A stretch of DNA of 34,602 nucleotides. Origin: a virus. Position 1 is the stretch's first letter, and each line of letters opens with the position of its first letter. Below, piece after piece: positions 5,862 through 34,602 of this stretch. Location of the stretch: positions 1 to 34,602 of the IMG/VR virus record IMGVR_UViG_3300025759_000315; one strand, 5' to 3'. The notes under the pieces were generated by a model that searched no databases, was not told where the DNA came from, and saw only the letters and a list, made by a program, of their open reading frames with translations. The position numbers and the translations under genes were made by a program.

Positions 5862-6114
5862 CAAGCGCATAGCCAGCAATGTCTAGCCAGCTGTCGAATG
5901 AGTAACGCTGCCGCGGCGTTTCTGTGTCTTGTTTAAGACGTGCAATCTTCAGCAACATCATCATGATGCCAACGTCCTGTACGTTGAACTCGACACCTTT
6001 GTACTCTGACCAGAAGGCTGCAATGTTTTGCAGGTTTTCTGATGGTGAGCCGTAGTCATTGCCACGATCTTCTACAGTTTCTTCTAGTTTGTTTATGAAG
6101 TATTTTCTATTCAT
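5776..6114 (-). CDS. DUF6378-like phage protein (MazG-like helical fold suspected)
   Basis: This is a 112-aa protein. The pattern is R-NDYGSP-EN--NIAAFWSEY, then DVGIMMMLLKIARLK and SFDSWLDIAGYAL. It matches a helical family common in phage replication regions that resembles MazG/dUTPase-like all-alpha folds; the function is not established. I use the ATG at 6114 rather than the GTG one codon earlier, because TGATG couples it to the previous gene's stop and AAGGA lies just upstream. It is the last gene of the leftward arm and overlaps the convergent phosphoesterase gene. Confidence 0.7.
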   Translation of the reverse strand: MNRKYFINKLEETVEDRGNDYGSPSENLQNIAAFWSEYKGVEFNVQDVGIMMMLLKIARLKQDTETPRQRYSFDSWLDIAGYALVTTEAISDIEDNLHPLVDQQNIAPMKQG

Positions 6115-6362
6115 CACGATTCCTTGTTTGTTTTTTCATACTCACCTAATGATGACCATCCACCGTTAACTTCTGTCATGCGGGTATAATAGATTCCAAC
6201 GTCATCATCTGTATCCGCATCATCAGCGAATGCATCAGGCGGCAGGTTATTTTTTATTGGTGCAAATAGTTTGCGTCTTTGCGCTTCATCGTATCCCATA
6301 ACAGATGACCAGCATCTGTTGTGTGGGTTTCGTGCGGCATATGTTGTTTTGTTTTTCTTCAT
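6114..6362 (-). CDS. Hypothetical protein, acidic C-terminal half
   Basis: This is an 82-aa protein of unknown family. A basic N-terminus (KKNKTTYAARNPHNRC) precedes an acidic middle (ADDADTDDDVG) and a short GGWSSLGEYEK motif. A GGAG sits about 8 bases before the ATG. The stop overlaps the next gene's ATG, so it belongs to the leftward operon. It is separated from the upstream gene by a strong hairpin (6379-6403). Confidence 0.5.
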   Translation of the reverse strand: MKKNKTTYAARNPHNRCWSSVMGYDEAQRRKLFAPIKNNLPPDAFADDADTDDDVGIYYTRMTEVNGGWSSLGEYEKTNKES

Positions 6363-6378
6363 TGTATGCTCCGATTAA

Positions 6379-6403
6379 ATAGGCGGGGTCATCCCCCGCC
6401 TAT
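6379..6403 (-). terminator. Strong hairpin between leftward genes (terminator or attenuator)
   Basis: A perfect 10-bp inverted repeat (ATAGGCGGGG / CCCCGCCTAT) has a 5-base loop. On the - strand it follows the DUF736-like gene's stop by 9 bases, and a short TTTAAT follows it. The U tract is weak. This may be a partial terminator or an RNA-stabilising 3' end that lowers expression of the two downstream genes. Confidence 0.6.
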
Positions 6404-6412
6404 GTATTGTGT

Positions 6413-6799
6413 TTAGAATGGCACCTCATCGTTTGTAAGTACCGGCCTTTCAGGCTGCACCGATTGCGGTGTTACCTTGCTTTGCTTTGGTTCGCGTTTA
6501 AGCGATAGGTACTTTGTACCCTTGTCGGATTCAGCCCGCCATGCAGCTAGCCGCATGTCGCCATCCATTGGGCCGGAGTATGCTGGTTGCTTATTCTCTG
6601 GCGTTGCATCCTCATTCATATAAAGCACACCGACACGCTGATAGACAACAAAAACATCTCTGCCTTCCTTGTCTGTGTCAGTGACAAGGGCTAATGATTT
6701 CTTGCCATCGCCATCCATGTCAATGCTGCCGGTCAGAAGCAGACGTTGCTGCTCCATTGGGGGGAACACAGCCCCCCTGTTGGTATTATCATAGTCCAC
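6413..6799 (-). CDS. DUF736-like protein with an SSB-type C-terminal tail
   Basis: This is a 128-aa protein. The body is beta-rich, with NRGAVFP at the start, LTGSID, and MRLAAWR...GTKYLSLK near residues 80-102; this resembles DUF736-type proteins. The last residues DEVPF are preceded by a Pro/Gln/Ser-rich linker (103-123). This is the architecture of bacterial SSB tails (D-D-x-PF), which recruit replication and repair enzymes. It starts at a GTG overlapping the ERF stop (TAGTG), with GGAGG about 9 bases upstream. A single-strand DNA-binding role next to the annealing protein and exonuclease is inferred, not shown. Confidence 0.65.
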   Translation of the reverse strand: MDYDNTNRGAVFPPMEQQRLLLTGSIDMDGDGKKSLALVTDTDKEGRDVFVVYQRVGVLYMNEDATPENKQPAYSGPMDGDMRLAAWRAESDKGTKYLSLKREPKQSKVTPQSVQPERPVLTNDEVPF

Positions 6800-12357: not shown

Positions 12358-12888
12358 TTAGCCAACTGCCTTGAGCAAGCTAGCTGCTGTTGGTTTGATC
12401 CGAGACTGTGTGCTAGATGTTGCACCGCTGAACAGCTTCTCGCGTGTGTCGTAGAAGTCAGCTGCGCCTGTCCACACTCTGTGTGCTAGGATCTCAAACA
12501 GAAGCTGTGTAGATGTAGCCTGATGCTCGAAGATCGCTTCGAGTGCTTGCGATTTCGCAAGCCTCGCATCGATGCGCGTTGTCTCCGCGAGTTCGCCATT
12601 GCGGCGAACCTCGTCGTCACGCTGCGCTTCGAGCTTCTTCTGCCAGTCGCGCTGCCCTTGGGCTGCTTTCTCGAATGTCGCAGTAGCTGCTCCATATGCA
12701 AGAAAGACATCCCGATTGTAGTATGGGTTGTCTGCAAACGACACTGGATTTTGATCCTCGCTACGAGGATCAAGGCCATCTGCAAGATGGCCGTCCAACA
12801 TCGTGATGTTGGCGATCAGTGTCTGGTTGACTTCTTCCATGTTGATAGTTACTTCATGCTTACGGATTACATTTACTTTCTTAGTCAT
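12358..12888 (-). CDS. Hypothetical early protein, first gene of the leftward arm
   Basis: This is a 176-aa protein of no recognised family. N-terminal beta-like segments (KKVNVIRKHEVTINMEEVN) lead to a long charged helix, about residues 70-125 (FEKAAQGQRDWQKKLEAQRDD and on), likely coiled coil, then a Ser/Thr-rich C-terminus. It has its own intrinsic terminator and is the gene nearest the divergent region. Early, possibly high, expression is inferred. The GC of this gene is higher than that of its neighbours. Confidence 0.6.
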   Translation of the reverse strand: MTKKVNVIRKHEVTINMEEVNQTLIANITMLDGHLADGLDPRSEDQNPVSFADNPYYNRDVFLAYGAATATFEKAAQGQRDWQKKLEAQRDDEVRRNGELAETTRIDARLAKSQALEAIFEHQATSTQLLFEILAHRVWTGAADFYDTREKLFSGATSSTQSRIKPTAASLLKAVG

Positions 12889-12920
12889 AGTTCAGTTCCT
12901 ACTCTTGTAGTTAAGGTTAT

Positions 12921-13525
12921 ACACATACACACAGTGTGCATGATATGGCTGACGAACTCGGACTGACTCGCAGCAGTCAAGTCGCTTGTTCCTAATTGCT
13001 CGGGAGCTAGATTCGCGGAAGGAACCGATTTGCAAAGCAAATTGGAAGGAGCCGCTAATCTAGCTATACCCTCGCTGCTCAGGTGCGACTTTACTGATCG
13101 AGGCTGAGCCGAGTCATCATTCCATGATAAAATGCAAACTTGTGTGTGTGTGTCTCACATAATGACGAGCCTTGTGGAGTTCGCAAGCCAGCCCAAGCTG
13201 GCTTGTGAAAGCACAACGAGGAGTGGGATGAAGCAAAGATCCGCAGGCTTGTACTGCATGCGCGGCCTAGCGCATATAACGGACTGACCCGCCCCTTCGA
13301 GCGAAGTTTACGAGTGAGGGGGGCATTAGGGGTCAGATGTCCATTTATCGCAACTATATGTCTGAGTGACAGTATCTTTACGATAAGGATACAGCTGGCT
13401 CAAGCATGGTTCCACCAGCAAGCTGGCGTGCGCCGGCTGGGCATCGGATTGCCAGTCCAAGCTATGCTTGGCTACTGGCGACCGATGGGCGACACGCTTG
13501 CTGGTGTGGTTCTGCTTGAGCTAGC
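12921..13525 (+). ncRNA. Large multi-domain structured RNA candidate (about 600 nt)
   Basis: No credible gene lies in 12889-13601. The segment folds into nested helices. Domain 1 closes with 12921-12933/13141-13153 (13 bp). Inside are 12956-12961/13109-13114, 12974-12985/13085-13096, 13006-13018/13052-13064 and 13025-13033/13037-13045. Domain 2 has 13184-13192/13197-13205, 13258-13263/13270-13275 and 13284-13295/13320-13336. Domain 3 is a long arm: 13394-13406/13513-13525, 13413-13423/13496-13506, 13442-13447/13482-13487, 13451-13456/13474-13479 and 13457-13462/13466-13471. Four G-U pairs (13027-13043, 13397-13522, 12926-13148, 12944-13126) work only if the + strand is transcribed. Size and complexity recall GOLLD/ROOL-class phage RNAs; membership is untested. 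Confidence 0.7.
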
Positions 13526-13539
13526 AGGTTGTGCGTGAA

Positions 13540-13551
13540 TGTGCGTTGACA
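13540..13551 (+). promoter_or_regulatory. TGTGCGTTG element before the terminase small subunit gene
   Basis: TGTGCGTTGACA sits just past the end of the structured RNA and 51 bases before the terminase gene start. It contains a perfect -35 (TTGACA). No good -10 is found at 16-18 bases, so this may be an activator or polymerase-recognition element rather than a plain promoter. The same nonamer occurs at 14241, 18375, 21649 and 31910. Confidence 0.4.
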
Positions 13552-13601
13552 GCGGTATTAATCCTGTGCCAGAAAAGGGGGGGACACAGGGGGGGTTCTT
13601 G

Positions 13602-13985
13602 ATGGGGATGAGTATGAGCAAAGAGCTGACTGTAACCGAGAAGCAAGCGCGGCTAGTGGATACCCTCGTAGCAAGTGGCTGTAGCATCAAGGATGCCGCG
13701 CATGCTGCCGGTTACGCCAGCGGTGAAAGCGGGAGAGTGACAGCCAGCAAGGCTTTGCGGTTGCCTCATGTGCAAGCATATATGATGCAGAGAGTCGCAG
13801 AAACGCTTGGTTTGAACGCTACGACAGCCGCGGCGCGACTCGTGCATCTCGCTCAGGGAGCCAAGAGTGAGTATGTGCAGCTGGAAGCGAGCAAGGATAT
13901 TCTGGACCGCGCTGGCTTCAAGGCTCCCGAGCGACACATGCACTTGCATGCTGGCGACATTTCTGTGAATATCGATCTGTCATAG
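13602..13985 (+). CDS. terS: Terminase small subunit-like protein
   Basis: This is a 127-aa protein. LTVTEKQARLVDTLVASGCSIKDAAHAAGY is the HTH N-terminus typical of small terminases. A helical oligomerisation region (residues about 55-105) and ILDRAGFKAPER follow, a common pattern near the end. It should recognise the packaging site and regulate TerL. The frame opens at 13539, but AGGGGGGG lies 7 bases before the ATG at 13602, and the part upstream has low-complexity codons. The large subunit is eight or more small genes downstream, an unusual separation. Confidence 0.8.
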   Translation: MGMSMSKELTVTEKQARLVDTLVASGCSIKDAAHAAGYASGESGRVTASKALRLPHVQAYMMQRVAETLGLNATTAAARLVHLAQGAKSEYVQLEASKDILDRAGFKAPERHMHLHAGDISVNIDLS

Positions 13986-33729: not shown

Positions 33730-34602
33730 ATGTCAGGCCCACTAGGTTCAGCCCAATGGATGTACGCTTCTGGTGCAGAAGTCACCCAGCAATCCCTCAA
33801 GTTCAACGATGACGAAAGCCAGTATCTAAGCTGGACACCGGCTGCTGCTGGCAACCGCAAGACGTGGACTTGGAGTGGCTGGGTCAAGCGTGGTGAATTA
33901 GGGTCAGCAAATCCGCTTTTTGCCGCTTATAATGGAAATGCTGACGCAACATTAACTTACATAGTTTTTAATTCAAACGACAATGTTGAAGTTGTTTGGT
34001 GGAACGCAAGCATCAAAACAAATGCAGTCTTTCGTGACACTTCGGCTTGGTATTACATAACAGTTTCTTTTGATACCACTCAAGCAACATCCTCAAACAG
34101 GACAAAAATATATGTCAACGGTGTTGAGCAAACATTAACAGGAACATATCCGACACAAAACACAGACTATGGAATAAACAACAATATTCCTCATAGAGTC
34201 GGCAATGCTGATTTTGCTTATACTTTTGGCACATTTGACGGCTACCTATCCGACATTAACTTCATTGACGGTCAAGCCCTAGACGCAAGCAGCTTTGGTC
34301 AGTTCACTGATGGCTATTGGGAAGCTATAGACTACGCTGGTTCATACGGCACAAACGGTTTCCACCTGACCTTCGCGGATGATGTGGTCAGCGAGGGGTT
34401 CAATACAGTTACCTATCGTGGCACAGGGGCTACTCAAAGCATCAGCGGGTTGGGTTTTGAACCGGATTTTGTTTGGTTAAAACGTAGGGATAGCAGCGCA
34501 AGCCATAATTTACACGATATCGTTCGTGGCGCTAACCAACAGTTAAATTCAGACGGAACTGCCTTAGAAAGCACAAACACCAACTTCTCGTCCTTTGACT
34601 CT
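33730..34602 (+). CDS. Large tail fibre, 5' part (runs off the window)
   Basis: ATG at 33730 has GGAG (33721-33724) five bases upstream. The frame stays open to the window edge. Residues about 15-190 form a LamG/concanavalin-like jellyroll (QQSLKFNDDESQYLSWTP, then TWTWSGWVKRG, IYVNGVEQTLTGTYP, FDGYLSDINFIDGQAL). It is followed by the start of a VWLK-R module. The last 295 bases are a divergent version of 128-422. The real protein is completed by the segment at 1-2927 after circular joining. This is the probable receptor-binding fibre. Confidence 0.85.
   Translation, partial: MSGPLGSAQWMYASGAEVTQQSLKFNDDESQYLSWTPAAAGNRKTWTWSGWVKRGELGSANPLFAAYNGNADATLTYIVFNSNDNVEVVWWNASIKTNAVFRDTSAWYYITVSFDTTQATSSNRTKIYVNGVEQTLTGTYPTQNTDYGINNNIPHRVGNADFAYTFGTFDGYLSDINFIDGQALDASSFGQFTDGYWEAIDYAGSYGTNGFHLTFADDVVSEGFNTVTYRGTGATQSISGLGFEPDFVWLKRRDSSASHNLHDIVRGANQQLNSDGTALESTNTNFSSFDS
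34181..34307. repeat. Second copy of the 127-bp terminal repeat
   Basis: This copy is identical to bases 1-127. It encodes the end of the LamG domain of the large fibre. The sequence after it (34308-34602) is a homologue of 128-422 that differs at many positions. That fits either two alleles in the sampled population or a second module copy. Confidence 0.9.

Follow-up and report, generated by a model that had tools for sequence, protein, structure and literature searches.

A conserved, three-domain structured RNA gene candidate in the gap upstream of TerS in an uncultivated marine podovirus

What occupies the single gap from which the early and late genes of a small marine phage diverge? The window, by which we mean the whole stretch of DNA analysed, is the IMG/VR virus record IMGVR_UViG_3300025759_000315 of an uncultivated marine podovirus, 34,602 bases long. 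Its late genes start at 13.5 kb and continue rightward across the ends as far as 5.86 kb, its early genes run leftward from 12.89 to 5.78 kb, and the 650 nt between the two arms (12889-13538) house a structured element. An earlier note on this DNA had described it as an ornate, plus-sense structured RNA of about 600 nt between the early and late arms, a description that our analysis upholds, as the covariation and the G-U strand bias hold in relatives. Judging from sequence comparison, we give a probability of roughly 0.93 to the claims that the gap encodes a three-domain RNA of about 600 nt kept by compensatory change, that the functional strand is the + strand (the sense of TerS), and that two deeply diverged clades have inherited the RNA in place, always directly ahead of the TerS promoter, while the left gene was swapped.

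From its predicted portal/head-tail adaptor, major head and tail proteins, RecE, Erf, RepO-like initiator and lysozyme, we identify the window as a small podovirus-like phage. Its TerL is 67% identical to that of Pelagibacter phage EXVC031P Hodr, its only cultivated relative, and at most 44% identical to those of the other phage records listed. The ends (1-247 and 34181-34427) repeat each other at ~94% over 247 bases, the likeness decaying further in, and because of this repeat we consider that the genome is close to complete; it is probably circularly permuted, or circular and closed with a variant overlap. The repeat sits inside a tail-fibre gene that is split across the window ends. Where the late and early genes converge (5904-6779, +), eight terminator-like sites were seen, all in + sense, against 1.5 expected. 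The features bordering the RNA are the following.

12358-12888, - strand: leftward gene of 176 aa, function unknown, without PHROG or Pfam match
13546-13551, + strand: TTGACA, the -35 of the late (TerS) promoter, downstream of the RNA; the -10 is poor in the window
13577-13595, + strand: G7-ACACA-G7, just upstream of TerS and outside the RNA, present in 68/73 clade A loci and 0/68 clade B loci
13602-13985, + strand: TerS, the first gene of the late operon, matching PHROG 51 and PF03592 (Terminase_2); 13539 is an alternative start, 13602 being more likely

The 176-aa gene is the left neighbour of the element in clade A (nine loci), and other genes take its place elsewhere. Directly behind it lies a strong intrinsic terminator (12345-12322, -), on which basis it looks like a one-gene unit adjoining the RNA.

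The + strand of 12890-13600 folds at -317.7 kcal/mol, against -245.4 +/- 7.4 for 20 dinucleotide shuffles (z -9.8), and the - strand is likewise structured (-284.5, z -12.1). As both strands fold far beyond their shuffles, the fold alone cannot pick the strand, and covariation among homologues is needed. No DNA similarity to the element was found in 50,697 phage records. Searches of IMG/VR with TerS, the leftward protein and DNA patterns gave more than 200 loci, many of them redundant, from which we took nine distinct full-length copies for clade A (the window, L007, L012, L018, L037, L097, L111, L114 and L115). Clade B phages, whose TerS is about 35% and TerL about 54% identical, carry domain I and the hexaloop hairpin of domain II. 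The parts of the RNA are listed here; the overall coordinates are its minimal conserved extent and not mapped RNA ends.

12921-13526, + strand: structured non-coding RNA (z -9.8; consensus structure with 52 compensatory pairs in nine homologues)
12921-13153, + strand: domain I, the 5' domain and the most widely shared; 22/56 pairs covary across clades A and B, and its covariance model scores 247 bits on + and 57 on -
12921-12941 with 13132-13153, + strand: P1, closing domain I (ACAC.. / GUGUGUGUGUGU)
12967-13102, + strand: inner helices of domain I, CUCG/CGAG (12967-12970/13099-13102) and GUCAAGUCGC/GCGACUUUAC (12975-12985/13085-13095)
13006-13064, + strand: hairpin with a purine internal loop made of two facing invariant GGAAGGA(A/G)CC strands (13017-13023 and 13044-13050)
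13113-13129, + strand: short conserved hairpin GUCAUCAU-UCC-AUGAUA, re-made as CACAAU-UUYAC-AUUGUG in L097, L133 and L145
13165-13228, + strand: lineage-specific insertion with a 13-bp hairpin (13180-13192/13197-13209), missing from 7/9 homologues
about 13236-13336, + strand: domain II
13243-13257, + strand: domain II hairpin GCAGG..CUGC, paired in 8-9 of 9 homologues, with one double change
13258-13275, + strand: domain II hairpin with a 6-bp stem and a conserved hexaloop, GGCCUA or GACCAA; stem fully recoded, clades A and B
13284-13336, + strand: domain II stem CUGACC/GGUCAG, 100% paired, 2/6 pairs with double changes
13393-13526, + strand: domain III, a long near-continuous hairpin with apical stem 13457-13462/13466-13471; compensatory double changes in 28/53 pairs (helices 16, 18 and 19)

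The earlier note had named covariation among homologues as a check on its fold, and the outcome was strongly positive. RNAalifold on the nine full-length copies gave 159 pairs, 52 of which show compensatory double changes, a count reached by none of 500 shuffles and by none of the slid controls (2-13); 96.8% of the cells in the consensus are paired, against 30-42% after sliding the pairing. Covariation is strongest in domain III: there the two arms of a helix change in concert over their whole length, the window having GCUGGCUCAAGCA/UGCUUGAGCUAGC and L018 GCUACAUAUGGCA/UGCCAUAUGUAGC. In domain I, for which 13 sequences of both clades could be aligned, the 22 covarying pairs compare with 4-8 in slid controls; the GUCAAGUCGC/GCGACUUUAC helix switches sequence among homologues and is fully compensated, and the lower stem of the hairpin at 13006-13064 covaries at 8/12 pairs around loop strands that stay invariant. 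The stem of the hexaloop hairpin has been recoded many times (AUGCGC, UUGGCC, AUGCCC, AUCCUC, UUGCCC and others) around G[AG]CC[AU]A, for which no consistent complement was found in cis as a pseudoknot partner. The nesting into three domains claimed from the window alone is borne out, save for a stretch of the middle: ~13165-13228, located in a linker of the RNA and common to the window and L114 only, is an insertion outside the conserved RNA.

A covariance model built from the 13-sequence domain I alignment, R1, finds more than 20 clade B loci end to end at E < 1e-7, with + always the better strand (L154, 1.5e-18; L139, 1.7e-17; L128, 5e-12; L177, 7e-8). Four further loci are matched weakly (L025, L027, L031 and L033, E 3e-4), and the remaining loci of the same search, Hodr included, gave no match. 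Independent DNA-pattern matches on contigs that reach TerS all lie 206-364 nt upstream of it, and no match to the RNA motif pattern was seen in cellular genome contigs. Conservation of a coding frame, which the earlier note had named as a ground against an RNA, did not appear: homologues differ by single-base indels, which rule out a shared reading frame, and the short + ORFs are not preserved; we rejected a protein-coding reading of the gap. The first leftward gene varies between loci while the RNA persists, so the RNA does not depend on that gene. The domains of the RNA are themselves reshuffled: when the alleles of the clade A loci L018, L111, L115, L097, the window and L037 are compared, L018 has domain I of L111 but domain III of L097 and L115, which suggests recombination between RNA domains of clade A phages.

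Which strand is selected was addressed in 116 non-redundant loci, whose 660 nt ahead of TerS were folded with G-U pairs forbidden so that both strands are treated alike; in these folds we counted, in the letters of the + strand, isolated mismatches with at least three Watson-Crick pairs on each side. Clade A gave a G.U:A.C ratio of 72:12 and clade B one of 55:9, against 15:8 and 5:13 in coding controls, and the + strand was the more stable in 110/116 loci. When a single locus was kept for each of 64 sequence-unrelated clusters, the ratio was 69:14 (p ~ 1e-7 versus base composition), compared with 13:11 in the coding control, and the + strand folded better in 60/64. This agrees with the argument first made from the window, that plain palindromes would lack a strand bias; the four G-U pairings on which it was based (13027-13043, 13397-13522, 12926-13148 and 12944-13126) are all G/T partners in the sequence. 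Further support for the + strand comes from P1, whose 3' strand is constant (GUGUGUGUGUGU) and whose 5' strand is, at most positions, limited to A or G facing U and to C or U facing G, a variation that pairs on + only. Moreover, G-U pairs make up 10.4% of the pairs on + and 6.9% on -, and several are tolerated within the 12-bp closing stem. By the strand test the selected molecule is a single strand of rightward sense, and with this G-U share and the pattern in P1 it is almost certainly RNA rather than single-stranded DNA. The strand test, isolated G.U versus A.C mismatches in strand-neutral folds, is a cheap finder of strand-specific RNAs in sequences that are too diverged to align.

The case is weakest on the production of the RNA, as a free-standing RNA gene would normally own a promoter and a terminator. 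The region has a single strong sigma-70 site, TTGACA-17/19-TATA(A/C)T, which closely precedes TerS; TTGACA lies within 130 nt of TerS in 67/73 clade A and 58/68 clade B loci, followed by 19 nt and TATAAT in many clade B loci and by 17 nt and TATACT in Hodr. A leader of the late mRNA made from this promoter was rejected, since the promoter lies downstream of the RNA. Ahead of the RNA, within the left gene, the + strand showed no sigma-70 promoter that is conserved; no convincing terminator was seen behind the RNA, and no phage-encoded RNA polymerase was recognised among the annotated ORFs. It is for this last reason that the host RNA polymerase would be the one to make the RNA, from the left, during infection. 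In clade B, late promoters such as L126:2941 and L165:2939 join a consensus-perfect TTGACA and TATAAT by an unusually long 19-bp spacer, which suggests activator dependence.

The best overall explanation, to which we give about even chances, is a virus-specific non-coding RNA gene. During infection the folded, stable RNA would work chiefly in trans, serving a protein of the host or the phage as scaffold or decoy. We lean to such a role because evolution has kept the shape, the strand and a few loops but not the flanking genes, although trans action is a proposition that could fall either way. Protein binding might go through the invariant loops, namely the facing GGAAGGA strands and the G[AG]CC[AU]A hexaloop. 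A scaffold or decoy fits better than a base-pairing regulator, because the domain alleles recombine freely and the sequence turns over fast.

Is the element then one of the known large RNAs? It has the attributes of a large structured phage ncRNA, being non-coding, with a structure kept by compensatory change and one strand selected. The phi29 pRNA is a phage structural RNA of ~174 nt linked to packaging genes; our element is longer and has no match to the phage pRNA model of Rfam. Indeed, Rfam 15 run on the whole window at the gathering threshold returned no family, GOLLD, ROOL, OLE, HEARO and phage pRNA included, and a permissive search of 12700-13800 (E<=5) gave a sub-threshold isrD match, within the leftward gene, and nothing else; literature searches turned up no description of the element. 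The earlier note had likened the RNA to GOLLD and ROOL without placing it in a family; kinship with these two is not supported, given the missing Rfam match and the absence of tRNAs (ARAGORN found zero in the window). GOLLD is large (>800 nt in many members), ornate, phage-encoded and also marine, with a conserved and a less conserved half, and ROOL is ornate, about 550-660 nt long and encoded by phages or prophages, the function of both being unknown (PMC12286853). The element resembles GOLLD in being large, ornate, phage-encoded and marine, and ROOL in being of like length, ornate and phage-encoded. However, GOLLD is often near tRNA islands, whereas the element lies between TerS and a divergent operon, has no covariance-model match and has a motif that is unmatched in cellular genome contigs; it likewise differs from ROOL by the lack of a tRNA island. 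The cabRNA of staphylococcal phages is a structured RNA of the terminase locus that retains hairpins although one phage's sequence is entirely unlike another's, and in the first-described phages it derives from the terS-terL coding region (~400 nt) (PMC10686824). Our element too is a structured phage RNA at the terminase locus with a sequence that diverges between phages, but it is intergenic, upstream of TerS, and has its own conserved fold, whereas cabRNA comes from coding sequence. In kind the element appears to belong with GOLLD, ROOL and other large ornate phage RNAs, but it is a member of neither family. GOLLD and ROOL are among the most puzzling non-coding RNAs, elaborate and conserved with no known job, and the element adds an independent marine-phage family with a dense compensatory record, a fixed place beside TerS and a cultivated relative, Hodr on Pelagibacter, whose smaller element lends itself to testing.

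The main rival to an RNA acting in trans is one that acts in cis where early and late genes meet. It would form the 5' part of a transcript that begins within the leftward gene and runs rightward, and would act on the polymerase (put-like antitermination), on the TerS/late mRNA, or as an antisense that covers the first leftward gene's ribosome-binding site. The RNA holds a fixed position relative to the late promoter, it is without a promoter or terminator of its own that we could find, and the rod of many relatives extends at its base into the ribosome-binding site of the leftward gene, a place of strong G.U:A.C bias (37:6 when the 5' arm lies within 60 nt of the start codon). This strict position also fits a cis role, though the whole phage family appears syntenic. 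However, late transcription begins beyond the RNA, at the strong promoter that separates it from TerS, the left gene lacks conservation, which makes a gene-specific antisense role unlikely, and 600 nt of elaborate structure exceed the needs of a leader; we hold the cis reading to be possible but rather unlikely.

A replication element would account for the one-strand bias and for an intergenic site between divergent operons, whether as a single-stranded DNA site, be it a single-strand origin or a place of primosome assembly, or as the precursor of an R-loop primer like ColE1 RNA II. The phage has RepO-like, Erf and RecE genes and a possible SSB, and its cumulative GC skew turns near 12 kb, a turn that is confounded by gene direction. 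We nevertheless think it improbable: the G-U pairs of the closing stem, and their share on +, are expected of RNA and speak against a DNA site, and no Rfam match to RNAI or other known families was obtained. Still less probable is a packaging RNA, phi29 pRNA-like and working with the neighbouring terminase, or a pac/cos region. The element abuts TerS in every checkable locus, and pac/cos sites are often near terS, yet a duplex DNA site would not show the G.U strand bias, the phage pRNA model has no match, and the G7-N5-G7 element, which is separate from the RNA, is the better packaging-site candidate. In clade A the latter consists of two tracts of G6-8 some 3-8 nt apart and is the single such site in the window; it is possibly a packaging site, an unusual ribosome-binding site for TerS or an initially transcribed region. 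As for plain DNA palindromes, operators or cruciforms with no RNA function, both strands are indeed much more stable than their shuffles and divergent transcription starts overlap the region, but palindromes have no strand preference to set beside the 69:14 ratio, and multi-domain nesting with compensatory changes spanning hundreds of bases makes this reading very improbable. Overall, we favour a trans-acting structural or regulatory ncRNA over a cis leader, a replication element or a packaging RNA.

Beyond the two clades, most TerS loci fold well upstream of TerS, even where the sequence cannot be aligned: a 220-nt stretch with z <= -3 was found there in 43/60 loci, against 11/60 for downstream coding stretches, and example loci have rods of 200-300 nt starting at the leftward gene's ribosome-binding site. 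Most of the wider relatives have in this gap a predicted, strand-biased rod hairpin, the sequence of which has turned over almost completely. The gap of Hodr holds a small, structured, rod-shaped element (L119:7604-7931, z -3.4) which, like the RNA of the window, lies between the leftward operon and the TerS promoter, but which is half as long, AT-rich and without an R1 match. We tentatively raise the idea, doubtful as it is, of a widespread class of marine phage RNAs in which shape and not sequence is inherited: a + rod or multi-domain RNA in the same slot of dozens of sequence-unrelated phages, with a shared function that would tolerate near-total sequence turnover, for instance as an RNA scaffold for assembly or as a dsRNA-like decoy that engages a protein of host defence. 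If true, this would be a kind of phage RNA without known counterpart. The early genes of clade B have small structures of their own, as many leftward genes (e.g. in L154, L177 and L128) share a leader in which a GGGGUAG..CUACCCC hairpin and then ACGUCAAGGAGAA precede the start codon.
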